Part shown: positions 1 through 13,307 of the stretch, one piece after another | How the letters are laid out: each line of letters starts with the position of its first letter | Numbering within the stretch: the first letter of the stretch is position 1 | Assembly: GCF_011320075.1 (NCBI RefSeq) | Contig: NZ_JAANPA010000018.1 | Span: 1 to 52,228, forward strand | Source of the DNA: Sphingosinicella sp. YJ22 | GTDB taxonomy: Bacteria > Pseudomonadota > Alphaproteobacteria > Sphingomonadales > Sphingomonadaceae | Length of the DNA stretch: 52,228 nucleotides | Direction of reading: 5' to 3' | Notes under the pieces: generated by a model | Database searches by the model: none | The model's input: only the letters and a program-made list of their open reading frames with translations | Told to the model about the DNA's origin: nothing | Program-made: the position numbers and the translations under genes

Positions 1-29
1 GGGGTATCGGGCCGCGACGCCCCCAGCGC

Positions 30-180
30 CCGCCCCCTCCCTTCAGGGAAGCCGTTCAAGGGCCGGGGAGCGCTGAGGCGGCTCGATGCCGCCGAAGCGC
101 TTTCGAGGCCGCGAGGGGGAGTTCCCTGGCGCGCAGACGCGCGCACCCACCCCCGTCCCCTCCCTTGAAAGGGAGGGGTG
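30..180. repeat. Structured intergenic region with several inverted repeats upstream of sucC
   Basis: No gene was found in the first 257 bases. The stretch holds several nested inverted repeats. At 70-100 the arms GGCGGC (77-82) and GCCGCC (88-93) extend, across a tandem G/A mismatch, into a 5-bp outer stem. At 157-178 there is a perfect 10-bp stem (CCCCTCCCTT with AAGGGAGGGG) around a 2-base loop. A related pattern, CTCCCTT-CA-GGGAAG, lies near 36-52. These look like REP-type elements or a terminator of the gene beyond the left edge; which of these cannot be decided here. Confidence 0.45.
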
Positions 181-257
181 AAGAACCTTCCCATTGCGCG
201 TCCGCTATGCTTTAGGCGCGCCCAACCACAGGTGCGATCCGAAGGACTCCCACAGAC

Positions 258-1463
258 ATGAACATCCACGAATATCAGGCCAAGGAGCTGCTCGCGAAGT
301 TCGGCGTGCCGGTTCCGGCCGGCGTTGCCGCGATGAGCGTCGAGGAGGCGGTCGCCGCCGTCGACACGCTCCCCGGGCCGCTCTACGTCGTCAAGGCGCA
401 GATCCATGCCGGCGGCCGCGGCAAGGGCAAGTTCAAGGAATTGGGCCCCGACGCCAAGGGCGGCGTCCGCCTCGCCCGAAGCAAGGAAGAGGTCCGCGCG
501 GCGGCCGAGGAGATGCTCGGCAACACCCTCGTCACGATCCAGACCGGGGCCGAAGGCAAGCAGGTCAACCGCCTCTACGTCACCGACGGCGTCGACATCG
601 CCAAGGAATTCTACCTGGCGCTGCTCGTCGACCGCGCGACCGGCCGGATCGCGTTCGTTGCCTCGACCGAGGGCGGCATGAACATCGAGGACGTGGCCCA
701 TGACACGCCCGAGAAGATCCACACGCTCGTCATCGACCCGGCGACCGGCTTCATGCCGCATCATGGCCGCGCCGTCGCCAAGGCGCTGGAGCTGACCGGC
801 GACCTCGCCAAGCAGGCGCAGAAGGTCGCGGCCAAGCTGTACGACGCCTTCCTCGGCACCGACGCCGAGCAGATCGAGATCAACCCGCTCGCGGTCACCG
901 ACAAGGGCGAGCTGCTCGTCCTCGACGCCAAGGTCGGCTTCGATTCCAACGCCATGTTCCGCCACAAGGACCTCGCCGCGCTTCGCGACGAGACCGAGGA
1001 GGACCCGATGGAGCTGGAGGCGTCGAAGTACGACCTCGCCTACATCAAGCTCGACGGAAATATCGGCTGCATGGTCAACGGCGCCGGCCTCGCCATGGCG
1101 ACGATGGACATCATCAAGCTGAACGGCGCCTTCCCGGCCAACTTCCTCGACGTCGGCGGCGGCGCCTCGAAGGAGAAGGTCACCGCGGCGTTCAAGATCA
1201 TCCTCAGCGATCCCGCGGTCGAGGGCATCCTCGTCAACATCTTCGGCGGAATCATGCGCTGCGACATCATCGCGGAAGGAATCGTCGAGGCGGCGCGCGA
1301 GTGCCACATCACGGTGCCGCTGGTCGTACGCCTCGAGGGCACCAATGTCGACGAGGGCAAGCGCATCCTCGCCGAATCCGGCCTCGACATCCTGCCCGCC
1401 GACGACCTCGGCGACGCGGCGCGCAAGATCGTCGCGCAGGTGAAAGAGGCGGTTCCGGCGTGA
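258..1463 (+). CDS. sucC: Succinyl-CoA ligase (ADP-forming) beta subunit
   Basis: This is the beta chain of succinyl-CoA synthetase, which couples succinyl-CoA cleavage to ADP (or GDP) phosphorylation in the TCA cycle. The 401-residue length is close to the family (about 388-400). The N-terminal ATP-grasp domain starts [12 protein letters not shown] and carries the nucleotide-binding stretch [15 protein letters not shown] at residues 46-60. The C-terminal ligase domain has the conserved [10 protein letters not shown] near residue 330, where the helix contacts the phosphohistidine loop of the alpha subunit. The ATG at 258 begins the family-typical N-terminus. The alpha-subunit gene sucD does not follow; instead a tiny ORF overlaps the stop codon and etfBA come next. 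SucD must be encoded elsewhere. Confidence 0.97.
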
Positions 1464-1591
1464 TCAAGCCGAACCTGGCCAACGCCCACAAACGCTACGG
1501 ACCGGGCGGGCGCGAGCTCGCCTGGGCGGCGTTGAAGGGCGCGGGCATGGGTGCGCTTCTTGCCGTGATCGTGGTGAAGCTGGTCGCCTGA
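1460..1591 (+). CDS. 43-residue single-span membrane peptide coupled to sucC
   Basis: A short ORF starts at a GTG that overlaps the sucC stop (GTGA, 1460-1463), a standard arrangement for translational coupling. The product has a polar, basic N-terminal half ([19 protein letters not shown]) and then one hydrophobic helix ([20 protein letters not shown]), so it would be a small inner-membrane peptide. No family was recognised. The coupling and the sensible membrane topology argue that it is real; its small size keeps confidence moderate. It sits between a TCA-cycle gene and the ETF genes and may be co-expressed with both. Confidence 0.55.
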
Positions 1592-1665
1592 AGCGTTCGC
1601 GGGGCGCTTGACGTTAACGGAAGGTGGGCGGTAGCGGCTGCCTGCAAGCGATTGAGAGGAAGGCC

Positions 1666-2411
1666 ATGAAGCTCCTGGTCCCGGTCAAACGGGTGCTCGA
1701 TTACAACGTGAAGCCGCGGGTGAAGGCGGACGGGACGGGGGTCGACCTCGCCAACGTCAAGATGAGCATGAACCCGTTCGACGAGATCGCGGTCGAGGAA
1801 GCCATCCGCCTCAAGGAGAAGGGCGCGGCGACCGAGATCGTCGCGGTGTCGATCGGACCGGCGAAGGCGCAGGAGACGTTGCGCACCGCGCTGGCGATGG
1901 GCGCCGACCGCGCGATCCTCGTCCAGAGTGACGACGAGGTCGAGCCGCTGGCGGTCGCCAAGATCCTCGCCAAGATCGCAGAGGAAGAGCAGCCGGGGAT
2001 GATCATCCTCGGCAAGCAGGCGATCGACGACGATTCCAATCAGGTCGGCCAGATGCTGGGCGCACTGCTCGGCTGGGGCCAGGGCACGTTCGCGTCGAAG
2101 GTCGAGGTCGAGGGCGACAGCGTCAGCGTCACCCGCGAGGTCGACGGCGGCCTCGAGACGGTGAAATTGAAGACCCCGGCGATCGTCACCACCGACCTTC
2201 GCCTGAACGAGCCGCGCTATGCGACCCTGCCCAACATCATGAAGGCCAAGTCAAAGCCGCTCGCGACCAAGAGCCCGGCCGATTACGGCGTCGACACCGC
2301 GCCGCGGCTCACGGTGCTCAAGGTGACCGAGCCCTCCAAGCGCCAGGCCGGCGTGAAGGTCGGCAGCGTCGACGAGCTGATCGCCAAGATCAAGGAAACG
2401 GGAGTCATCGG

Positions 2412-2415
<4 letters not shown>
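1666..2415 (+). CDS. etfB: Electron transfer flavoprotein beta subunit
   Basis: EtfB is the AMP-binding subunit of the ETF heterodimer, which takes electrons from acyl-CoA and other flavin dehydrogenases and passes them to ETF:quinone oxidoreductase. The 249-residue product begins [19 protein letters not shown], the family N-terminus, and contains the signature block around [20 protein letters not shown] (from about residue 184). The ATG at 1666 is preceded by GAGAGGAAGG at the right distance. A TTGACG hexamer at 1608-1613 could be a -35 box, but the matching -10 is poor. The stop overlaps the etfA start (ATGA, 2412-2415), so the two subunits are translationally coupled. Confidence 0.97.
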
Positions 2416-3340
<925 letters not shown>

Positions 3341-3344
<4 letters not shown>

Positions 3345-3805
3345 ACGCTCGCGAGCCCGTGCCAGTCGATTCGGCTGGGCGGGCAGCCCGGCGACAGGGC
3401 GACGGCCGTGATCGGGTGGCGCGCCGGCCTCAATCCCAGCCGCGACGCCTCCCGCCAGACGTAGAAGTCGAGCAGCGGCAGCAGCTTGGGCGCGTCTTCG
3501 CTGAGGCTGCCACGCCATGCATAGCGAAGCGGCGCCACGCCTCGCGCCGCGATGCCGAGGACCTGGCGCAGTGTGCCATGCGGCGGGTAGTCGGCGACCA
3601 GCACGACGCAAGCGCCCGAGCGGCCGTGAACGACGGTGCCGAAGCGCTGTCGCTCCCGCCGCACCTCGAACCCGCTGCGGCGCAGCAGCTCCTCGGCCTG
3701 GACATCGAACGCCGAGGAATCGATGGGCGGCGCCTCGCGCGCCCAGGCCGCCTTCACGCAGAGGCTGAGCAGCAGGGCGGCGCCGAGCGCAACCCTAGCG
3801 CGCAC
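3341..3805 (-). CDS. Small exported protein of the exosortase operon
   Basis: This 154-residue product has a convincing signal peptide (basic start, hydrophobic [17 protein letters not shown], likely cleavage after residue 22). The mature part is about 130 residues with no recognised family; it has an N-terminal alpha-beta-looking segment ([20 protein letters not shown]), cysteines in [13 protein letters not shown] and LSPGCPPS, and a tryptophan near the C-terminus. The GTG start at 3805 has GGGAGG six bases upstream and overlaps the end of the exosortase gene by 11 bases, so the two are coupled. Position suggests a periplasmic accessory factor of the exosortase, but no function is established. 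Confidence 0.7.
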
Positions 3806-4637
3806 CGAACACCTCCCGGCGCGCGCCGAACAGGACGATGGCGACGACCAGCACCAGGGTCAGCCAATTGAACAGGCTGTAGCCCCAGCCATTGTGGAGC
3901 GCCTCGAGATGATCGGGGAACGAGAGCATCGCGCCGATGCGGACGACGTTGACCGCGACCGTCGCCGCCAGCGCAGCCGCGCACCAAGCGACCGCGCCCC
4001 AGCTGAAGGGCACGCGGAACAGCTGGTTGACCGTCGCCCAGAAGACGATGGCCAGCGACATGCCCTGCATCGACGAGCAGCCGGGGGCGACGATCAGGCG
4101 CGTCGCCCTGTCCGTCGACCAGAGCGTGTTGCCGACATGCTCGACGCCGAGGCTGCCGGCAACGAAGACGGCGTCCAGGGCGAGCAGCGGGCCGCTGAAC
4201 AGGGCGAGGAGCAGCCGGCCCCACAAGACCGCCCCGGTGATGGCGAGAAAGACGAGACCGGAGCGGCGTAGCGGCGATCCGGGCGCGCTGGTGAACACCG
4301 TCCACAAGGATGCGCCGGTAAGCGCGACCGCGCTCGCGGTCGGCACCGGAAACAGGGCCCCGGCGACGACCAGCGCCGCGACCAGGGCGTCGCCGCGCCG
4401 CCACGGTTCGGTTGCGTCGCCCTCGCGCGCGATCGACAGACCGGCGGCAAGCGCGGCCCACAGGATTGCGCTCACGCCGAACAGATTGAGCGCTGCGGCG
4501 ACGAACCCCATCCCTTCGAGGTGCCGCAAGGCCAGGCCGACAAACGCGTTCAGCGTCGCCAGCAGGAACAGGCCGAAGAAGAGGCTGGCGCGGGAAACGG
4601 CTGGCAGCCGCGCCTCTGCGCTGGCGGCCGAATTCAT
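3795..4637 (-). CDS. Exosortase/archaeosortase family transpeptidase
   Basis: A 280-residue polytopic membrane protein with about eight hydrophobic segments. It carries the exosortase catalytic triad in the expected order: Cys187 in [13 protein letters not shown], Arg233 in NVVRIGAM, and His248 in [14 protein letters not shown]. Exosortases are thought to cut proteins bearing a C-terminal PEP-CTERM-like tripartite signal and hand them to an unknown acceptor. The gene lies directly downstream of a 56-residue PEP-CTERM-like peptide and overlaps the next exported-protein gene, so a dedicated three-gene sorting operon is likely. No polysaccharide synthesis cluster, the usual companion of larger exosortase systems, is present nearby. 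The exact Xrt subfamily was not assigned. Confidence 0.85.
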
Positions 4638-4662
4638 CCTGCCGTCTCCCGCGCGAAGTGGA

Positions 4663-4833
4663 TCAGCGCGAGCGGCGCTTCTTCACGAGATAGTAGCCGC
4701 CGGCAAACAGCGCCAAGGCGGGCAGGCCCGCGCCGAGGATCGGAGCCGGAACGACGACACCGGCGATCGCCGGAGAGGCCGCAAACAGGGTTCCGGCGGC
4801 AATCAGGCCGGCACCGGCAAGACGAGATAGCAT
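4663..4833 (-). CDS. 56-residue PEP-CTERM-like peptide, probable exosortase substrate
   Basis: The product is almost nothing but targeting signals. Residues 1-25 form a signal peptide ending ASPAIAG. What remains is about 31 residues: a VVVPAPILGAG motif resembling the VPxP/VPAP variant of PEP-CTERM, a hydrophobic helix (LPALALFAGGYYLV), and a basic end KKRRSR. That is the tripartite layout of an exosortase recognition signal with no passenger domain. The ATG at 4831-4833 follows a strong GGGGGAG ribosome-binding site. It is the first gene of the operon, 25 bases upstream of the exosortase start. It could be the sole substrate, a decoy or regulator of the exosortase, or a structural peptide. 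Confidence 0.75.
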   Translation of the reverse strand: MLSRLAGAGLIAAGTLFAASPAIAGVVVPAPILGAGLPALALFAGGYYLVKKRRSR

Positions 4834-4954
4834 CGATGACTCCCCCTTTTGTGACTTGGACCGCGCGTTGCGGTGAGAGCCGACTTGCCCCAGAACGCGG
4901 CCTGCGTAAACCGGGGCGCGGCGCCCGGCGTCGACAGGAGAGAGAACGCCCGGA

Positions 4955-5761
4955 ATGCCCACTGACTGGCTTCCCATCGCAGGGTTCTGGCTGCTCCTGC
5001 TGGCGCTGTTCGCTGCCGAGCTCGCCTGGCCCATGCGCCGCGGCCAAGCGGAGGGCGGGGGCCGCCTTGTCACCAATTTCGGGCTAGCCGCGATCAACGT
5101 CCTGTTGCTGTCGTTGCTTCCCTTGTCCGCCGTTATCGCGGCCCAATGGTCCCGCGAGAGCGGTTTCGGCCTGCTCCCGCGCCTCGGCGTCGGCGGCGTC
5201 GCGGCGATCGTCCTCACCCTCGCTGCTCGAAGCCTTGCCGGCTACGCACTGCATCGGGCGGCCCACCGCTGGCAATTGCTGTGGCGTGTGCACAAGGTCC
5301 ACCACTGCGACGCGGCCGTCGACCTGACCACCGGGCTGCGTCACCATCCGCTCGAGCTGCTCTACGTCGCCTCGTTGGTCGCCTTGCTGGCCGCCGGCCT
5401 CGGCCTCTCGCCCGAGGCCGTCGCCGTCTATGAGGCTGCCGCGGTCGGCTTTTCCTTATGGTCCCACGCCAATGCCGGCCTCCCGCCCGCGCTCGATCGG
5501 GCGCTTCGCCTGCTGGTCGTGACTCCGGCCGCCCATTCGGTCCACCATTCCGCCGCCCAGGTCGAAACCGACAGCAATTACGGCGAGGTCTTCACCTTCT
5601 GGGATCGACTGTTCGGCACCTATAACCGCATGTCGCCCGCCCAGGCGGCGACCTTGCGTTGTGGGCTGGGCGACGCTGAGGACGCGAGCGCCGGCCGGCT
5701 CCACGTGCAGCTCTGCGCGCCCCTGCTCGTGGCCCGACACCGTCAAATGCCGAAAGTCTGA
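4955..5761 (+). CDS. Sterol desaturase / fatty acid hydroxylase family membrane protein
   Basis: A 268-residue integral membrane di-iron oxygenase-type protein. It has the histidine boxes of the superfamily: HRAAH at 100-104, HKVHH at 113-117, HH near 130, and a late HSVHHS followed by TDSNYGEVFTFWDRLFGTY. These ligate a non-heme di-iron centre that hydroxylates or desaturates lipid chains or sterol-like substrates in the membrane. The ATG at 4955 has GGAGAGAG upstream. The HDAC-family gene follows after six bases, so the two are probably co-transcribed. The lipid substrate cannot be told from sequence; carotenoid and hopanoid-like lipids are possible in sphingomonads. Confidence 0.88.
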   Translation: MPTDWLPIAGFWLLLLALFAAELAWPMRRGQAEGGGRLVTNFGLAAINVLLLSLLPLSAVIAAQWSRESGFGLLPRLGVGGVAAIVLTLAARSLAGYALHRAAHRWQLLWRVHKVHHCDAAVDLTTGLRHHPLELLYVASLVALLAAGLGLSPEAVAVYEAAAVGFSLWSHANAGLPPALDRALRLLVVTPAAHSVHHSAAQVETDSNYGEVFTFWDRLFGTYNRMSPAQAATLRCGLGDAEDASAGRLHVQLCAPLLVARHRQMPKV

Positions 5762-5767
5762 GCTGCC

Positions 5768-6772
5768 ATGCGTATCTTCTTCGACTCCCGTCAGCTCGAG
5801 CACGATCCGCAGCAGGAGCTGCACAACGGCGCGTGGATGGCGCATTCCGAGCATCCCGGGCGGACGCGCGCCATCGTCTCGGCGGTCGGCGCGACCGAGA
5901 CGCCGAGCGACCGGGGCGAGGCGCCGCTGCTGCGCGTCCATCCCGCCGATTATCTCGGCTTCCTCAAGACCGCTCATGCCGATTGGCAGTCGGCGGGGCG
6001 GCCGGGCAATGCGATCGGCTATACCTGGCCGGTGGCGCGGCGGCGGCCGCTCAACCTCTCGCGGATCGACGCCCGGCTCGGCCAGTACAGCTATGACGCC
6101 GCGACTCCGGTGGCGGCGGGGACGTGGACGGCCTCCTATTGGGGCGCTCAGACGGCGCTTGCCGCGACCGAGGCGGTGCTGGGCGGCGAGCGCTCGGCCT
6201 TCGCCTTGTGCCGGCCGCCGGGCCACCATTGCGGCGCCGACTATCTCGGCGGCTATTGCTATCTCAACAATGCCGCCATCGCGGCCGAGGCGGCGCTGGC
6301 GGCGGGCAAGAAGCGCGTCGCGGTCCTCGACGTCGACTATCATCACGGCAACGGCACTCAGGACATCTTCTACGACCGCGGCGACGTGCTGTTCGTGTCG
6401 ATCCATGCCGACCCGGCGACCGACTATCCCTTCTACTGGGGCCACGTCGACGAGGCCGGCGAGGGTGCGGGCGAGGGCGCGACCCTCAACCTGCCGCTGC
6501 CGCAGGGCACCGATTTCGCCGCCTACCGCCCCGCGCTCGCCCAGGCGCTGGAGCGGATCGCGGCGTTCGGCGCGGAGCTGCTGATCGTCTCCTACGGCGC
6601 CGACACGTTCGTCGGCGACCCCATCTCCCATTTCGCGCTGGACACCGCCGACTATCCGCTGATGGCCCGCGAGATCGCGTCGCTGGGCCTGCCGACCGCG
6701 ATCGTCATGGAAGGCGGCTACGCGACCGATGCGCTCGGCGCCAACGTCGCCGCCTTCCTCAGCGGCTTCTAG
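5768..6772 (+). CDS. Histone deacetylase family protein (acetylpolyamine amidohydrolase-like)
   Basis: This 334-residue zinc hydrolase of the arginase/deacetylase fold removes acetyl groups from small amines or lysine side chains. The catalytic histidine pair is in RPPGHHCGADYLGGYCYLNN (about residues 149-166). The zinc ligands are in VAVLDVDYHHGNGTQDIFY and at VSYGADTFVGDPISHF, and the transition-state glycine-tyrosine motif is MEGGYATD near the C-terminus. The ADTFVGDPISHF stretch resembles bacterial acetylpolyamine amidohydrolases more than AcuC. It follows the sterol-desaturase gene by six bases. Its TAG stop is shared, as CTAG at 6769-6772, with the convergent oxidoreductase gene. Confidence 0.9.
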   Translation: MRIFFDSRQLEHDPQQELHNGAWMAHSEHPGRTRAIVSAVGATETPSDRGEAPLLRVHPADYLGFLKTAHADWQSAGRPGNAIGYTWPVARRRPLNLSRIDARLGQYSYDAATPVAAGTWTASYWGAQTALAATEAVLGGERSAFALCRPPGHHCGADYLGGYCYLNNAAIAAEAALAAGKKRVAVLDVDYHHGNGTQDIFYDRGDVLFVSIHADPATDYPFYWGHVDEAGEGAGEGATLNLPLPQGTDFAAYRPALAQALERIAAFGAELLIVSYGADTFVGDPISHFALDTADYPLMAREIASLGLPTAIVMEGGYATDALGANVAAFLSGF

Positions 6773-7860
6773 GCTGCCTCGCGCTCCTCTTCGAGCGTCG
6801 GGTAGTCGACATAGCCGTCGGGGCCCTGGCTGTACCAGGTCGCCATGTCGTCGGCGTTCCAGCGCGCGCCGGTGCGGATGCGCTCGGCAAGGTCGGGATT
6901 GGCGATGAACGGGCGGCCGAAGGCGATGCCGTCGGCCAGTCCTTCGGCCACCGCCGCCTGCGCGGCGATACCCGTGAAATCCTGGTTGAGGATCAGCGGC
7001 GTCGTCACCGCGGCCCGGATCAGCGGCGAGACCTTGGCCTGGTCGCTTCGTCCGAAGGTGCCGTCCGGTCCCTGCTCGCGCAGCTCGATGAAGGCGAGAC
7101 CGATCCGCTCCATTTCGCGGGCGGCGGGCACGAACACCGAGGCGGGATCGCTGTCCTCGACGCCCTGCGACGCGCCGTTGGGCGAGAAGCGGACGGCGGT
7201 GCGCCCGCCGCCGATCGTGCCGGCGATCGCCTCGGCGACCTCGACCAGGAAACGGATTCGCTTCGCCGGCGCGCCGCCATAATCGTCGTCGCGCAGGTTC
7301 GCCGCCTCGCGCAGGAACTGGTCGATCAGATAGCCATTGGCGGCGTGGATCTGGACTCCGTCGAAGCCGGCGGCGATGGCGTTGGCCGAAGCGCGCGCAT
7401 AATCCTCGACGATGCGCTGGATGTCGTCTTGGGTGACGGCCCGCGCCTCGACGTAGTGCTTCTTGCCTTCATAGGTGTGGGCGTAAGCCGGCGCGGTGGT
7501 CGCGGAGGCGGAGACCGGTTGGCCGCCGCCGAGATCGGGGTGGACGAGCCGGCCCATGTGCCACAGCTGGGCGAAGATGCGCCCGCCCGCTTCGCGGACG
7601 GCGCCGGTGACCGGCTTCCACGCCTCGACCTGCGCCTCGTTCCACAGGCCCGGCGCGAACGGCCAGCCGAGGCCTTCGCGGCTGATCCCGGTCGCCTCGG
7701 AGATGATCAGGCCGGCGCCGGCGCGCTGGCTGTAATAGTCCGCCATGACCGGCGTCGGCACCGCCTCGCGCGTGGCGCGAGCGCGGGTCAGCGGCGCCAT
7801 CAGGATTCGGTTGGGCGCGCTCACCGCGCCGAGCTGGATGGGGTCGAACAGGCTGGCCAT
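6769..7860 (-). CDS. NADH:flavin oxidoreductase of the Old Yellow Enzyme family (alkene reductase)
   Basis: A 363-residue FMN-dependent TIM-barrel protein of the NemA/OYE class, which reduces activated C=C bonds of enones, nitro-alkenes and nitrate esters using NAD(P)H. Signatures are the N-terminal LFDPIQLGAVSAPNRILMAPLTRARA, the substrate-binding pair in QIHAANGYLIDQFLRE, and the FMN-binding end ADGIAFGRPFIANPDL. The ATG at 7860 is chosen because AAGGAG precedes it and because it begins the standard family N-terminus; the reading frame stays open far upstream only because of base composition. It is divergent from the DUF885 lipoprotein gene across a 186-base spacer that could hold regulatory sites. 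Confidence 0.93.
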   Translation of the reverse strand: MASLFDPIQLGAVSAPNRILMAPLTRARATREAVPTPVMADYYSQRAGAGLIISEATGISREGLGWPFAPGLWNEAQVEAWKPVTGAVREAGGRIFAQLWHMGRLVHPDLGGGQPVSASATTAPAYAHTYEGKKHYVEARAVTQDDIQRIVEDYARASANAIAAGFDGVQIHAANGYLIDQFLREAANLRDDDYGGAPAKRIRFLVEVAEAIAGTIGGGRTAVRFSPNGASQGVEDSDPASVFVPAAREMERIGLAFIELREQGPDGTFGRSDQAKVSPLIRAAVTTPLILNQDFTGIAAQAAVAEGLADGIAFGRPFIANPDLAERIRTGARWNADDMATWYSQGPDGYVDYPTLEEEREAA

Positions 7861-8046
7861 TGGTGCCGCTCCTTGGAAGGCCGGCACCATGCCGGCGTCT
7901 CGAATGATAAGTGCGCAAATGAAACCTTCCAATGGGCCCGAGGATGGAAATTCCGATGGATCGCATCGATCCTCCTTATGGATCCGGCCGGCTGGCCGGC
8001 GCGCCGCGCCGCGGCTAACAAGGCCGCGAGGCAGCAGGAGAATGAC

Positions 8047-9327
8047 ATGAAATGGCTCTGGAGCGTGGTCGCGGCTTTGCTGCTCGCCGGATGCATGACG
8101 CCGCAGCAGAGCGCCGACAGCCTCGACGCCATCGCCCGCGACTATGTCGGCCTCAGCCTCGAGATCGGCACCCACGAGGAAGGCTATGTCGACGCCTATT
8201 ATGGGCCGGCCGAGTGGAAGCAGGCGGCGGAGGCGAACCCGCGCGCGGTGCCAGTTCTCGCATCGGCCGCGGCCGACCTGCAGGCGCGGCTGCGCGCGAC
8301 TGCGGCGCCCACGGATCCCCTCGTCCAGCGCCGCCGTGCCTTCCTCGACGCGCAGCTGACCGCCGCGCGCACGCGCCTCAGGATGATCGCCGGCGAGCGA
8401 CTGAGCTTCGCCGAGGAGGCGCAAGGGCTGTTCGGGGTCACGCCGGAAATCCGGCCGCTCACTCATTATGACGGGGTGCTCGCCCGCATCGAGCGGCTGG
8501 TGCCCGGCACCGCGCCGCTCCCCGAGCGGGTCGAAGCGTTCCAGGGCCGCTTCGTCATTCCGCCCGACCGGCTCGACTCGGTGATGCGCGCCGCCATCGC
8601 CGAGTGCCGGCGCCGCACCATCCAGCATATCCCGATGCCGCAAGGGGAGGCGTTCACCCTCGAATTCGTGCGCGACAAGAGTTGGTCAGGCTACAATTGG
8701 TACCAGGGCGATTATCGCAGCCTCATCCAGATCAACACCGACCTGCCGGTGCGGCTGAGCCGCGCCGTCGACCTCGGCTGCCACGAGGGTTATCCCGGCC
8801 ATCACGCCTACAACGCGCTGCTCGAGCGCGAGCTCGCGCGCGGCCGCGGCTGGGTCGAATATATGGTCTATCCGCTCTACTCGCCGCAGTCGCTCATCGC
8901 CGAAGGCTCGGCCAATTACGGAATCGACCTCGCCTTCACGCCCGAGGAGCGGCTCGCCTTCGAGCGCACGACGCTCTACCCGCTCGCCGGGATCCAGCCA
9001 GGCGACGCGTCCCGCTATCTCGACCTCCAGTTGGCGATCGAGGAGCTGGCCGGCGCCCGCTTCACCATTGCGCGCGACTATCTGGAAGGCCGAATCGACC
9101 GCGCCCGGGCGGTCGAGCTGACCCAGCGCTACCAGCTCGTCGGCGCGCGCCGCGCCGACCAGTCGGTCGGTTTCATCGACCAGTACCGGACCTATGTGAT
9201 CAATTACGGGCTCGGCAAGGACATGGTCCGCGCCCATATCGAGGCGGCCGGGCCGGATCGCGGCGCGCGCTGGGCGGCGATGCGGCGAATCCTCAGCCAG
9301 CCGACCCTGCCGGCTGACCTGCGCTGA
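8047..9327 (+). CDS. DUF885-family putative metallopeptidase, lipoprotein
   Basis: A 426-residue exported protein. The N-terminus ends in the lipobox LLAGC (Cys16), so it is likely anchored to a membrane facing the periplasm. The core matches DUF885 proteins: CHEGYPGHHAYN at 245-256 carries the HExxxGHH histidines and glutamate thought to bind zinc, and the downstream glutamate region is YMVYPLYSPQSLIAEGSANYG. The start is the ATG at 8047 with AGGAG seven bases upstream; the frame is open well before it without meaning. A second DUF885 gene lies at 45657-47477 and has a different active-site variant (HEGAPGHHFQ). Peptidase activity is inferred from family resemblance. Confidence 0.87.
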   Translation: MKWLWSVVAALLLAGCMTPQQSADSLDAIARDYVGLSLEIGTHEEGYVDAYYGPAEWKQAAEANPRAVPVLASAAADLQARLRATAAPTDPLVQRRRAFLDAQLTAARTRLRMIAGERLSFAEEAQGLFGVTPEIRPLTHYDGVLARIERLVPGTAPLPERVEAFQGRFVIPPDRLDSVMRAAIAECRRRTIQHIPMPQGEAFTLEFVRDKSWSGYNWYQGDYRSLIQINTDLPVRLSRAVDLGCHEGYPGHHAYNALLERELARGRGWVEYMVYPLYSPQSLIAEGSANYGIDLAFTPEERLAFERTTLYPLAGIQPGDASRYLDLQLAIEELAGARFTIARDYLEGRIDRARAVELTQRYQLVGARRADQSVGFIDQYRTYVINYGLGKDMVRAHIEAAGPDRGARWAAMRRILSQPTLPADLR

Positions 9328-9328
9328 C

Positions 9329-9360
9329 GAAAAAGGCGCCCCGGATCGCTCCGGGGCGCC
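9329..9360 (-). terminator. Intrinsic terminator serving the 9385-10170 gene
   Basis: A perfect 11-bp inverted repeat (GGCGCCCCGGA, 9335-9345, with its complement at 9350-9360) encloses a TCGC loop. On the minus strand it is followed by a run of five T, so it terminates the minus-strand gene. On the plus strand it may also help end the DUF885 transcript, although a T-run is lacking there. Confidence 0.85.
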
Positions 9361-9384
9361 TCCCTCGCAACACCCGCTCTGCGC

Positions 9385-10170
9385 TTAGCGCAGCGGGTGG
9401 ATGGCGATGACCTGGTTGGTGCGTGCGTCGATCTCGTAGACGCGCTGGCCGTCAGAGCGGAAATAGACGTCGCTACGGCCCTGGTAGCTGGTGCTCGGCG
9501 CCGGGCGGAGAACGCTGCCGATCGTGCCGGTGATCAGATCGCCGACTCGAAGGCCGCCATTGCCGAGGATGCTGCCGAGGATGTTGCCACCCATGCCGCC
9601 GCCGCCGAGCACGCTGCCCAGCACGCCGCCGAGAACGTTGCCGACGCCGCTATTGGTGCGGGTCTGCGGATACGGCGCGTAAGGGCCGCCCTGGCCGTAA
9701 TAGCCGTTCTGGACCGGCACCGGACGGCCATACTGGTCGTAGGTGTAGCCCGGCGCCAGGACGCGGCGGCCATATTGGTCATAGGTATAGCCGGTGTTGC
9801 CGTAAGCGTAGCCGGCGCCCGGCTGGGCATAGCCATAAGCATAGGCGCCGCCAGCGACCTGAAGCTGCTGGCTCAGATTGCCGACCCGCTGTTGAAGCAC
9901 GTTCCATTCCTGCTGGCTGATGCCGTTGGCGGCATAGCGGGCCCGCAGGCGGGTCAGGGTGCGGATTTCCTGGCGCAGACGACGGCGCTCGGTCGCGTCG
10001 ATCGTGCCGGCGCGCACGCCGGCATTGAGCTGCGTCTGCAGCTGAACGATCTGGTTCTGGACCGTGGCATTCGCGTTGGCGTTGCTGGTCACATAGGTCT
10101 GCGCGGACGCCTCGACCGCCATCGTCGCGATCGGAAGCGCCGCCAGGGTGATAATAAACCGTTTCATCAT
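9385..10170 (-). CDS. Exported glycine/tyrosine-rich protein with coiled-coil N-terminal part
   Basis: The 261-residue product has a signal peptide (MMKRFIITLAALPIATMAVEASAQ). Residues 30-110 look like a helical hairpin (VQNQIVQLQTQL... ERRRLRQEIRTLTRLRARY... NVLQQRVGNLSQQLQ). Then follow repeats of the type YTYDQYGRRV-LAPG-YTYDQYGRPV, a long Gly-rich hydrophobic stretch (GNVLGGVLGSVLGGGGMGGNILGSILGNGG), and a small C-terminal module SDVYFRSDGQRVYEIDARTNQVIAIHPLR. It is likely an outer-membrane-associated or periplasmic protein. The ATG at 10170 is preferred over an in-frame GTG at 10182 because GGAG sits six bases before it. No function is known. Confidence 0.75.
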   Translation of the reverse strand: MMKRFIITLAALPIATMAVEASAQTYVTSNANANATVQNQIVQLQTQLNAGVRAGTIDATERRRLRQEIRTLTRLRARYAANGISQQEWNVLQQRVGNLSQQLQVAGGAYAYGYAQPGAGYAYGNTGYTYDQYGRRVLAPGYTYDQYGRPVPVQNGYYGQGGPYAPYPQTRTNSGVGNVLGGVLGSVLGGGGMGGNILGSILGNGGLRVGDLITGTIGSVLRPAPSTSYQGRSDVYFRSDGQRVYEIDARTNQVIAIHPLR

Positions 10171-10338
10171 CTGATACTCCACTACGCCCCTCGCGCCTTG
10201 TGGAGTGTAAAACGGACGAAGCGTCGTGGTGTTTCACAGACAAAGTTTGTAAGGCTCGCAAAGTCGAGTCTTACCCGTCACTTTACCGCCTGTGCCGAAC
10301 GGTTCGCCGTTACTTGCGGTAGGATGAACAAACGCTTC

Positions 10339-10641
<303 letters not shown>

Positions 10642-10731
10642 TCAGTGTCGTGGTTGGTTGCGGTAGAGGAACAATCGGGGTGACGCGCCGGTTCCGCCGC
10701 CCTAACCAGCTTGTCGACGAGGAAAGGCCCG

Positions 10732-11232
10732 TTGAACGAGACCGAAACATTGTCCCCGGCGATCCCGGGCGAGCTTGAGGAAGCGACCCGCCGGCTGCTC
10801 GACAAGGCGTGCGAGCGCGACATCAGTCTCGCCACCGCCGAGAGCTGCACCGGCGGCATGCTCGCCTCGCTGCTGACCGATGTGCCCGGCATCGCCCACG
10901 CCTTCGAGCGCGGCTTCATCACCTATACCGACGAATCCAAGAACGAGATGCTCGGCGTGCCCAAGGAGCTTCTCAAGGAGAAAGGTGCGGTGTCGAAAGA
11001 GGTGGCGATCGCCATGGCCGAGGGCGCGCTGGAGCGGTCGCGCGCCAACATGGCTCTCGCCGTCACCGGCTTCGCCGACAAGGGCGACGAGCCGGGCCTG
11101 GTCCACTTCGCCTGCGCCCGCCCCGGCCGCAAGACAGCGCATCGCGAGGAGCATTTCGGCCCGATCGGGCGCGGGCCGACGCGCGTCGAATGCCTTCGCG
11201 TCGGCATCGAGATGATGACGGAGATGCTGTGA
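10732..11232 (+). CDS. CinA C-terminal (PncC-like) nicotinamide-nucleotide amidohydrolase
   Basis: A stand-alone CinA C-terminal domain of 166 residues, the family of PncC, which deamidates NMN to nicotinate mononucleotide. The catalytic serine motif TAESCTGGMLASLLT and the ITYTDESKNEMLGV segment with the expected lysine are present. The usual glycine-rich loop AVTGIAGPGGG is changed to AVTGFADKGDEPG, so activity should not be taken for granted. The TTG at 10732 is favoured because GAGGAAAGG precedes it; an in-frame TTG at 10711 is the alternative. The stop overlaps the NAD synthase start (TGATG), which fits a shared NAD recycling role because NaMN feeds the pathway whose last step is NadE. 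Confidence 0.82.
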   Translation: MNETETLSPAIPGELEEATRRLLDKACERDISLATAESCTGGMLASLLTDVPGIAHAFERGFITYTDESKNEMLGVPKELLKEKGAVSKEVAIAMAEGALERSRANMALAVTGFADKGDEPGLVHFACARPGRKTAHREEHFGPIGRGPTRVECLRVGIEMMTEML

Positions 11233-13307
11233 TGGCGGCGGAGATGAACGCGATCGAGGCGCTGCCGTTCGAGTCGATCCACCGCCACGGCTTCGTCCGA
11301 GTCGCGGCGGCGAGCCCGTGCGCGTCGTCGGGCGACGTCACGTTCAACGTCGACCAGACCATCGCGCTGGCGCGGGAGGCGCATGAGCGCGGAGTCGATC
11401 TCGCCGTCTTCCCCGAGCTCAACATCTCCTCCTACGCGGTCGACGACCTCCACTTGCAGGACGCCTTCCTCGACGCGGTCGAGCTGGGGATCGGCCGGCT
11501 CGCGCGCGAGACAGCGGACCTGAAAACGGTGCTGCTGGTCGGCGCTCCGCTCCGCCGCAACGGCCGGCTCTACAATTGCGGCCTTGCCCTCTCGCGCGGC
11601 CGGATCCTCGGCGTGGTGCCGAAATGCTTCCTGCCCAATTACCGCGAATATTATGAGAAGCGCTGGTTCGCCTCCGGCATCGGCACCGAGGGGCTGACCA
11701 TCCGTGTCGCCGGGCAGGAGGTACCGTTCGGCCCCGACCAGATCTTCGCTGCGGATAGCCTGCCGGACTTCATCTTCCACATCGAGCTGTGCGAGGATTA
11801 TTGGGCGCCGCTTCCGCCCTCGACCAACGGCGCGATGGCCGGCGCCTTGATCCTCACCAATCTTTCCGCCTCCAACATCACCATCGGCAAGGCCGACGAG
11901 CGCAAGCTGCTCTGCGCCGCCCAGGCGAGCCGCTGCCACGCCGCCTATGTCTATTCGGCGTCGGGGCCGGGCGAGAGCACCACCGACCTCGCCTGGGACG
12001 GCCAGGGCTCGGTCTACGAGCTCGGCGAGCTGCTCGCCGAGACCGGCCGCTTCGACCGCGGCAACGAGCTCGCGGTCGCCGACATCGACGTCCAGCGGCT
12101 GCGGCTGGAGCGGATGCGCAACGGCACGTTCAACGACAATGCCCGCGCCGCCGGCCACCCGGAGAAGAGCTTCCGTCGGGTCGGGTTCGATCACGCCCTG
12201 GCCGACCGCGACATCGGCTTCGAGCGGATCCTGCGCCGCTTTCCCTATGTGCCGAACCGCGCCGACCAGCTCGACCAGGACTGCTACGAGGCGTTCAACA
12301 TCCAGATCCAGGGCCTCGCCAAGCGCTTCCAGACGACGAGCGGCAAGCACCTCGTCATCGGCGTGTCGGGCGGGCTCGATTCCACCCACGCCCTGATCGT
12401 CGCGGCCAAAGTGTGCGACTGGCTCGACATCCCGCGCTCGACCATCCTCGGCTACACCATGCCGGGCTTCGCCACGGGCGAGACCACAAAGTCCAACGCC
12501 TGGGCGCTGATGCGCGCGCTCGGCATCGAGGCGGCGGAGATCGACATCCGCCCGGCCGCGACCCAGATGCTCAAGGACATGGGTCACCCCTTCGCCAAGG
12601 GCGAGCAAGTCTACGACATCACCTTCGAGAATGTTCAGGCGGGGCTTCGCACCGACTATCTGTTCCGCCTCGCCAACCATCGCGGCGGCTTCGTCGTCGG
12701 CACCGGCGACCTCAGCGAGGTGGCCTTGGGCTGGTCGACCTATGGGGTCGGCGACCAGATGAGCCATTACGGCGTCAATGCCGGCGTGCCCAAGACGCTG
12801 ATCCAATATCTCGTGCGCTGGGTGATCAAGTCGGGCCAGTTCGACGCCGAGACCAACAAGGTGCTTCAGGCTATCCTCGACACCAAGATCTCGCCCGAGC
12901 TGGTCCCCGCCGACGACGAAGGCGCGATTCAGTCGACCGAGGACCGGATCGGCCCGTACGAGCTTCACGACTTCTTCCTGTGGCACGTCCTTCGCCACGG
13001 CCAAAAGCCGTCCAAGGTCGCGTTCCTCGCCTGGCAGGCGTGGAAGGACCGCTCGGCGGGCCTGTGGCCGTTCGACTATCCCGAGCCTCTCAAGCGCGAA
13101 TATGACCTCGCCACGATCGTCAAATGGCTCGAGGTGTTCCTGTTCCGCTTCTTCCAGATCAGCCAGTTCAAGCGCAGCGCCATCCCCAACTCGCCCAAGG
13201 TGTCGGCGGGTGGCGCGTTGAGTCCGCGCGGCGACTGGCGCGCGCCGAGCGACGGCACCGCCGCGCCGTGGCTCGAGGAACTGAAGCGGGCGCTGCCGAA
13301 GGGCTGA
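11232..13307 (+). CDS. nadE: Glutamine-dependent NAD(+) synthase
   Basis: A 691-residue two-domain enzyme that converts nicotinate adenine dinucleotide to NAD using glutamine as ammonia source. The N-terminal nitrilase-like glutaminase domain has the triad Glu62 (FPELNISSY), Lys131 (VPKCFLPN) and Cys187 (IELCEDYWAP). The synthetase domain follows from about residue 350, with the PP-loop VIGVSGGLDSTHAL near 376-389 and the NAD synthase segment GTGDLSEVALGWSTYGVGD. The length fits the long glutamine-dependent class seen in Mycobacterium and many proteobacteria. Start ATG 11232 overlaps the CinA-family stop by one base. Confidence 0.96.
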   Translation: MAAEMNAIEALPFESIHRHGFVRVAAASPCASSGDVTFNVDQTIALAREAHERGVDLAVFPELNISSYAVDDLHLQDAFLDAVELGIGRLARETADLKTVLLVGAPLRRNGRLYNCGLALSRGRILGVVPKCFLPNYREYYEKRWFASGIGTEGLTIRVAGQEVPFGPDQIFAADSLPDFIFHIELCEDYWAPLPPSTNGAMAGALILTNLSASNITIGKADERKLLCAAQASRCHAAYVYSASGPGESTTDLAWDGQGSVYELGELLAETGRFDRGNELAVADIDVQRLRLERMRNGTFNDNARAAGHPEKSFRRVGFDHALADRDIGFERILRRFPYVPNRADQLDQDCYEAFNIQIQGLAKRFQTTSGKHLVIGVSGGLDSTHALIVAAKVCDWLDIPRSTILGYTMPGFATGETTKSNAWALMRALGIEAAEIDIRPAATQMLKDMGHPFAKGEQVYDITFENVQAGLRTDYLFRLANHRGGFVVGTGDLSEVALGWSTYGVGDQMSHYGVNAGVPKTLIQYLVRWVIKSGQFDAETNKVLQAILDTKISPELVPADDEGAIQSTEDRIGPYELHDFFLWHVLRHGQKPSKVAFLAWQAWKDRSAGLWPFDYPEPLKREYDLATIVKWLEVFLFRFFQISQFKRSAIPNSPKVSAGGALSPRGDWRAPSDGTAAPWLEELKRALPKG

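Follow-up and report, generated by a model that had tools for sequence, protein, structure and literature searches.

We found that the window (the whole stretch of 52,228 nucleotides of Sphingosinicella sp. YJ22 DNA analysed here) encodes an exosortase of an unnamed subfamily next to a 56-residue peptide that has both ends of a sorted protein and no passenger between them. This peptide is very probably the substrate of the exosortase, and the pairing of the two is well supported by the gene comparisons described below. The overall reading that we prefer, to which we give slightly less than an even chance, is that the dedicated exosortase would make a peptide of 4 to 10 residues that is most likely passed to a lipid modified by a neighbouring hydroxylase. 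Comprising, besides the exosortase, a single passenger-less substrate some 56 residues long, one partner protein, and one candidate lipid enzyme, this would be near the smallest possible exosortase system, and if the reading is true, a pair of sorting signals can itself be cargo. The small product should be directly visible by mass spectrometry, and four genes are enough for a test. Exosortase systems, predicted in 2006 (PMC1569441, accessible portion), and one-target sorting pairs (PMC3237569, accessible portion) are already known; what appears to be new, among the literature matches listed, is the unnamed subfamily, the passenger-less and sometimes tandem substrate, and the linked hydroxylase.

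Three minus-strand genes make up the core of the locus, at exactly the coordinates given by the original prediction. The peptide gene (4663..4833), called as an open reading frame (ORF), has an ATG start with GGGGGAG immediately upstream. The exosortase gene (3795..4637, 280 aa) starts with ATG 25 nt past the peptide stop, and the gene of the 154-residue partner (3341..3805) starts with GTG inside the exosortase end, the overlap being 11 nt. On the plus strand, a gene for a fatty-acid/sterol hydroxylase of 268 aa (4955..5761), absent from the original prediction, is divergent from the peptide gene. By the gene coordinates, 121 nt lie between them (4834..4954), a putative two-way promoter region; a simple 8-mer comparison of the regions upstream of the peptides found no shared promoter motif, the best 8-mer being common to no more than three of eight regions. 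The operon had been described as minimal, a description that we have abandoned because the hydroxylase gene accompanies the passenger-less version of the set.

The order peptide-exosortase-partner was found in all ten loci compared, nine from genomes of the window's family (our own, G196, G203, G518, G415, G340, G290, G359, and G302) and one from a MAG of a named genome collection (Alphaproteobacteria RYN_528, L011), in keeping with the earlier proposal that the exosortase is dedicated to a passenger-less target encoded by a conserved adjoining gene. The proposed lack of cargo holds for the window and, in all, for seven of these ten loci, but not for the other three, which have a longer Gly-rich protein with a PAP...AGLG tail (124 aa in G290, 106 aa in G359, and 159 aa in G302), nor for distant relatives, which have short passengers. 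Exosortases that go with passenger-less peptides are 27 to 54% identical to that of the window. In the phylogenetic tree, whose branching order is provisional because it was midpoint-rooted, the three Gly-rich loci form a clade (99/98) nested in a clade of ten (97/95); passenger-less lineages flank the Gly-rich clade on both sides, with our own locus and the MAG outermost. Considering these positions, the passenger-less state is either old or arose more than once. Counting our own genome each time, the enzyme was detected in 4 of 296 genomes of the order with a single sequence as the query, in at least 8 of 397 genomes of the family with a five-row profile, and, with a ten-row profile, in at least 10 of 385 genomes of the class and at least 1 of 110 genomes of the phylum (the sole match being our own genome); the profile figures are lower bounds, since only the top first-look candidates of each genome were scored in the large profile searches (up to 6 for the enzyme, 17 for the peptide, and 20 for the tail).

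The peptide consists of a signal peptide ending in AIA (assigned by eye and from the AxA motif), a stub GVVV, the residues PAP and ILGAG, one helix with GYY, and a terminal KKRRSR; both the N-terminal signal peptide and the tripartite tail of motif, helix, and basic cluster are therefore present. Across the seven passenger-less loci, the peptides are 53 to 60 aa long and the distance from AxA to PxP, counted by eye, is about 4 to 6 residues. Two of these peptides fell short of the models of PEP-CTERM tails: the window peptide scored 11.2 bits against a TIGR02595 cut-off of 16, and a G340 copy scored 13.4 against a PF07589 cut-off of 20.7. In G340, four peptide genes stand in tandem, with a pS of 0.51 to 0.62 versus a pN of 0.19 to 0.29 in all six pairs. 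The stub between AxA and VPGP differs in all four copies (TKF, FEV, GSVV, and ELAP), and the PGPEAG-helix tail is nearly constant among them. Run over 21 regions totalling 337,952 bases, a pattern for the architecture gave 10 matches, all at exosortases of the window's family, a count that is not independent because these peptides served to define the pattern and the regions had been picked for their exosortases. On sequence grounds, the 56-aa peptide is a real gene and not a chance ORF, given that its architecture recurs at homologous loci, that pN is lower than pS in G340, and that the pattern matches fall as they do.

A real gene could still be the remnant of something larger. We consider it unlikely that the locus is an ordinary exosortase/PEP-CTERM pair whose passenger decayed, with the peptide left as a relic or minimal tether that yields no special product. 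The distant relatives would fit such a course, having short low-complexity passengers and one annotated polysaccharide cluster, as would the side-by-side one-target sorting pairs known for rhombosortase (PMC3237569, text available in part). However, the peptides have been kept alongside exosortases as divergent as those above (27 to 54% identity) and in lineages flanking the Gly-rich clade, the four G340 copies have a pN below pS, and the hydroxylase is associated with them; it is this retention, duplication, and hydroxylase linkage that speak most against decay.

The enzyme itself scored above the exosortase/archaeosortase signature TIGR04178 (26.2 bits versus a cut-off of 23), which matched nine of the ten exosortases of alignment A4 at an E value of 0.01 or lower; PF09721 matched one of the ten at the same threshold, and the relatives L027 (14.9 bits) and L084 (17.9 bits) fall under the TIGR04178 cut-off of 23. 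No named Xrt, Art, or Crt subfamily of NCBIfam 20.0 claimed the window enzyme, its only match being ArtC at 9.6 bits versus a cut-off of 100. Relatives scored in bits also stayed below the named cut-offs (L025, ArtC, 28.2 versus 100; L027, CrtA, 19.0 versus 150), and for the other A4 members, compared by E value only, the best value to a named subfamily was 1.5e-6 (ArtC). The best reading is that they belong to a new, dedicated, and as yet unnamed exosortase subfamily. Cys187, Arg233, and His248, the residues singled out by the original prediction, are invariant in all 10 rows of A4. Together with Asn230, they are also unchanged in all 23 sequences compared, that of the window among them (the 22 of the tree plus G581, which is not in the tree), so that none of these homologues has lost the catalytic Cys. 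An AlphaFold model made from two sequences had a pLDDT of 45 and lends no support to an active-site geometry, and the window proteins had no credible match among the sequences of solved structures. The same genome codes on contig C6 for a standard XrtA-EpsI fusion of 528 aa (match at C6:25691-25969, L002 and L028; TIGR03109, 317 bits versus a cut-off of 208); hence, the exosortase of the window is an additional enzyme. The two resemble each other in combining an exosortase with an exported partner, but in the window the partner is separate and not detectably EpsI, and no XrtA model claims the enzyme.

If the peptide is a dedicated substrate, its tail should be scarce elsewhere in the genome. 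A tail profile used at an E value of 0.01 or lower on 18 genomes found the tail once in seven of the nine enzyme-holding family genomes, five times in G340, and twice in our own genome, where the matches are the C-terminal tail of the peptide and an internal helix on contig C36. In eight of the nine family genomes, then, the sole C-terminal tail adjoins the enzyme; the exception is G340, with its four tandem copies and one orphan. Even at an E value of up to 10, where the peptide profile had eight matches in our own genome, only the peptide and the C36 protein covered the tail part, so the genome does not hold the many PEP-CTERM proteins with the same tail that would have told against a one-substrate system. 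Among the 397 family genomes, the profile of the whole passenger-less peptide had matches in 5, each of which is one of the 8 enzyme-holding genomes. Because sequences from these five were used to build the profile, what is informative is that none of the 389 genomes without a detected enzyme had a match. Similarly, tail and enzyme occur together in six of the seven tail genomes of the class, a largely circular figure, five of the seven having supplied rows to the tail profile.

It seems quite improbable to us that the peptide instead persists unconsumed as a two-helix membrane subunit or regulator that stabilises or gates the exosortase, with the true substrates elsewhere; the original prediction had raised a role of this kind, in regulating or decorating the enzyme. 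Its gene lies immediately upstream of that of the enzyme in all seven passenger-less loci and it has nothing to display, as one would expect of a subunit, but a longer, substrate-like protein with the same tail occupies the upstream position in three of the ten trio loci and four of the ten class-level loci, which speaks against a pure subunit. The G340 orphan, away from the enzyme and next to a hydroxylase gene, and the lack of other C-terminal proteins with the same tail in eight of the nine family genomes also count against it.

Several other tails deserve a description. The C36 match (C36:239-316, L030 and L073) is a mid-chain LPIAGAGIG...RRRRR helix, after which the protein runs on for about 140 residues. 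On contig C14 (29674-29739, L008), a Ser/Gly-rich protein of 279 aa has the tail VPVPAPPMVLLFGAAAAALVARRRLARR (VPVPAPPMV...). With 17.3 bits, it alone in our own genome exceeds the TIGR02595 cut-off, and it was not reported by the tail profile at an E value of 0.01; it may belong to XrtA, and it counts against a strict one-target rule. A PxP tail as such was rejected as a family-specific marker, because G869 has tails of this kind and is absent from the enzyme matches. The G869 tails belong to three neighbouring larger proteins on contig C56 (L079), of the APAPVAGAG type, and these proteins look like ordinary sorted ones of a single tandem family. In G821, contig C97 (L071) codes for a 65-aa passenger-less peptide with the tail PAPAPVAGASLLG...RRR, away from the exosortase match of that genome and adjoining an ABC-transporter ORF that looks, by eye, like one of type I secretion.

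The third gene of the trio codes for a protein that is predicted to be exported or membrane-tethered, with two invariant cysteines at residues 66 and 141 (alignment A5). Its profile, built on five loci, recovered the other five with E values of 5.5e-62 to 1.6e-23. Pfam gave no match, NCBIfam and the PDB gave none that was credible, and an AlphaFold model from two sequences (pLDDT of 64) had no Foldseek match at an E value of 0.001 or lower. An identity as EpsI/DUF3485 was rejected (hhalign probability of 0.1% against a single EpsI sequence). Some rows of alignments A1, A4, and A5 start at non-start codons, and their N ends are arbitrary. In Microvirga ossetica, exosortase and partner are fused in one frame of 483 residues (L084, 4351-5799, NZ_CP016617.1, a stretch without annotated feature), with the enzyme at residues 40-316 and the partner at 328-481 (40 bits), which argues that the two proteins act together.

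The fourth gene is the divergent hydroxylase, whose product scored 99.8 bits against a PF04116 cut-off of 31. Its sequence has HRAAH, HKVHH, and HSVHH, which we take to be the histidine boxes of this family. The named family nearest to it is the ornithine-lipid hydroxylase OlsE (NF052566; E values of 6e-18 for the window protein and 5e-22 for that of G340), but at 65.2 and 78.5 bits, respectively, both proteins lie far below the cut-off of 475. A tblastn search (E value of 1e-4 or lower) located a divergent homologue adjoining the peptide in six of the seven passenger-less loci and none within 15 to 17 kb of the three Gly-rich loci. The seventh passenger-less locus is that of G340, whose contig ends about 200 nt past the peptides; on contig C19 of that genome, the orphan peptide, of 53 residues and with the same tail, is divergent next to a hydroxylase gene and away from the enzyme. 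The hydroxylases of the module scored 126 to 205 bits to that of the window, versus 70 bits or fewer for the best homologue in seven of the nine same-genus genomes sampled among those with no enzyme match. Five loci (our own, the MAG, G196, G518, and G415) have syntenic sucC-etfBA surroundings, and the adjacency of the hydroxylase in these is therefore partly shared inheritance. However, G203 has the hydroxylase with no sucC or etfBA found in 17.5 kb, so shared synteny does not fully account for the linkage. Among plasmids, the neighbouring sucC is matched best by one of Sphingomonas parapaucimobilis (84.9%).

The pairing of the genes, their conservation, the catalytic residues, the link to the hydroxylase, and the fusion were all observed; two cleavages, a transfer, and a lipid acceptor are predicted. 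Sec would insert the peptide as a helical hairpin, signal peptidase would cut after AxA (judging from the motif), and Cys187 of the exosortase would, by homology, attack at or near PxP...G, freeing the tail helix. The remaining stub of about 4 to 10 residues (GVVVPAP... in the window) would then, most likely, leave its thioester with Cys187 for an amine on an envelope lipid, and the product would be a peptide-lipid of ribosomal origin. The neighbouring hydroxylase may prepare or modify the acceptor lipid, and the partner would probably assist at the periplasmic face. The role given to the hydroxylase is by analogy with archaeosortase A: in haloarchaea, archaeosortase substrates are lipid-anchored, with an ethanolamine lipid as an acceptor that the authors themselves call speculative, and lipid-synthesis genes adjoin artA in several Methanosarcina (PMC7157517, accessible part). 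Provided that the peptide is the substrate, we see the case for a lipid acceptor as evenly balanced. Some observations count against the preferred reading as a whole: the hydroxylase, well short of the OlsE cut-off, might modify free lipids; three loci keep enzyme and partner with no hydroxylase found nearby; and hydroxylase and peptide share a divergent region, not an operon. A bolder version, which we regard as rather unlikely, has the exosortase as a peptide-lipid synthase that would ligate the stub to a lipid hydroxylated by its neighbour, the product being a ribosomal lipopeptide and the G340 copies encoding different head-group peptides.

The variable stubs of G340, with their nearly constant tail, would also be expected of a short variable product that is simply released, and the multiplication of peptide genes, one of them apart from the enzyme, agrees with this too. 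Signal peptidase and exosortase would in that case free a soluble signal or effector of 4 to 10 residues, with the hydroxylase as a bystander or acting independently. We hold this to be improbable, considering that no conserved receptor, transporter, or regulator gene was found among the nine window genes compared (a weak point against it) and that the hydroxylase linkage is left unexplained.

Attachment of the stub to a lipid would bear on a wider question, since the covalent anchoring of sorted proteins, and to what, was still open according to the available portion of a 2025 study (PMC12188702). Among the literature matches listed, we found no passenger-less exosortase substrate, a mention in the 2012 Haft survey (10.1128/JB.06026-11) being possible. 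A search for literature on an exosortase with a sterol desaturase had no match. A 2011 paper, going by its title, reportedly connects exosortase systems with N-acyl amino acid synthases.

The window system shares features with several known ones. Its enzyme is like the exosortase/archaeosortase superfamily (TIGR04178) in signature score and in its Cys, Arg, and His, and differs from XrtA, XrtB, XrtV, CrtA, and ArtC in that no named subfamily was over cut-off where scored. The targets of the rhombosortase/GlyGly-CTERM system bear domains of their own, whereas the window peptide carries nothing. One enzyme, one target, and neighbouring genes are what the two systems have in common, as far as the rhombosortase system is described in the accessible text of PMC3237569. 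With PEP-CTERM proteins (TIGR02595/PF07589), the peptide has in common the signal peptide at the N end and the motif, helix, and basic cluster at the C end; it differs in its motif (P-[ATSGR]-P, then G), in the absence of a passenger, and in number, typically one per genome in the window's family versus a median of eight (PMC1569441, accessible portion). Archaeal ArtA with PssA/PssD (PMC7157517, accessible part) is likewise a superfamily enzyme linked to lipid-enzyme genes, but the window system is bacterial and has a PF04116 hydroxylase and a passenger-less substrate.

Farther away, the class-level set comprises ten loci in nine genomes. A protein with the same tail and a passenger of about 30 to 80 residues lies within 0.4 kb upstream of the enzyme at loci of G641, G899, G750, and G653; the other six loci had no such tail nearby by pattern, bar a PSPAP ORF at the second G899 locus. 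The partner profile matched at four of the ten loci with an E value of about 1e-8 or better and weakly at three (2e-4 to 2e-3), the three remaining matches not being credible. Three Hyphomicrobiales plasmids also carry the enzyme, at 32 to 35% identity. The original prediction saw no polysaccharide cluster, and none was found among the window ORFs of positions 1-12000 read by eye for exopolysaccharide functions, but some relatives do have such genes nearby. Glycosyltransferase genes surround the enzyme-partner pair of Rhizobium sp. WL3, and a UDP-glucose/GDP-mannose dehydrogenase ORF is found just upstream in G302, within the family. Such polysaccharide clusters suggest that the wider exosortase family is tied to envelope polysaccharide. 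Just upstream of the Microvirga ossetica fusion are two proteins with VPGPIAGAG tails (4053-4403 on the plus strand and 3689-3961 on the minus strand), one of them divergent. The second G899 locus (C2, L057) codes for a divergent exosortase, and the short divergent ORF beside it ends in PSPAPELSMGLVGLVAVAGAYGLTRLNKRK.
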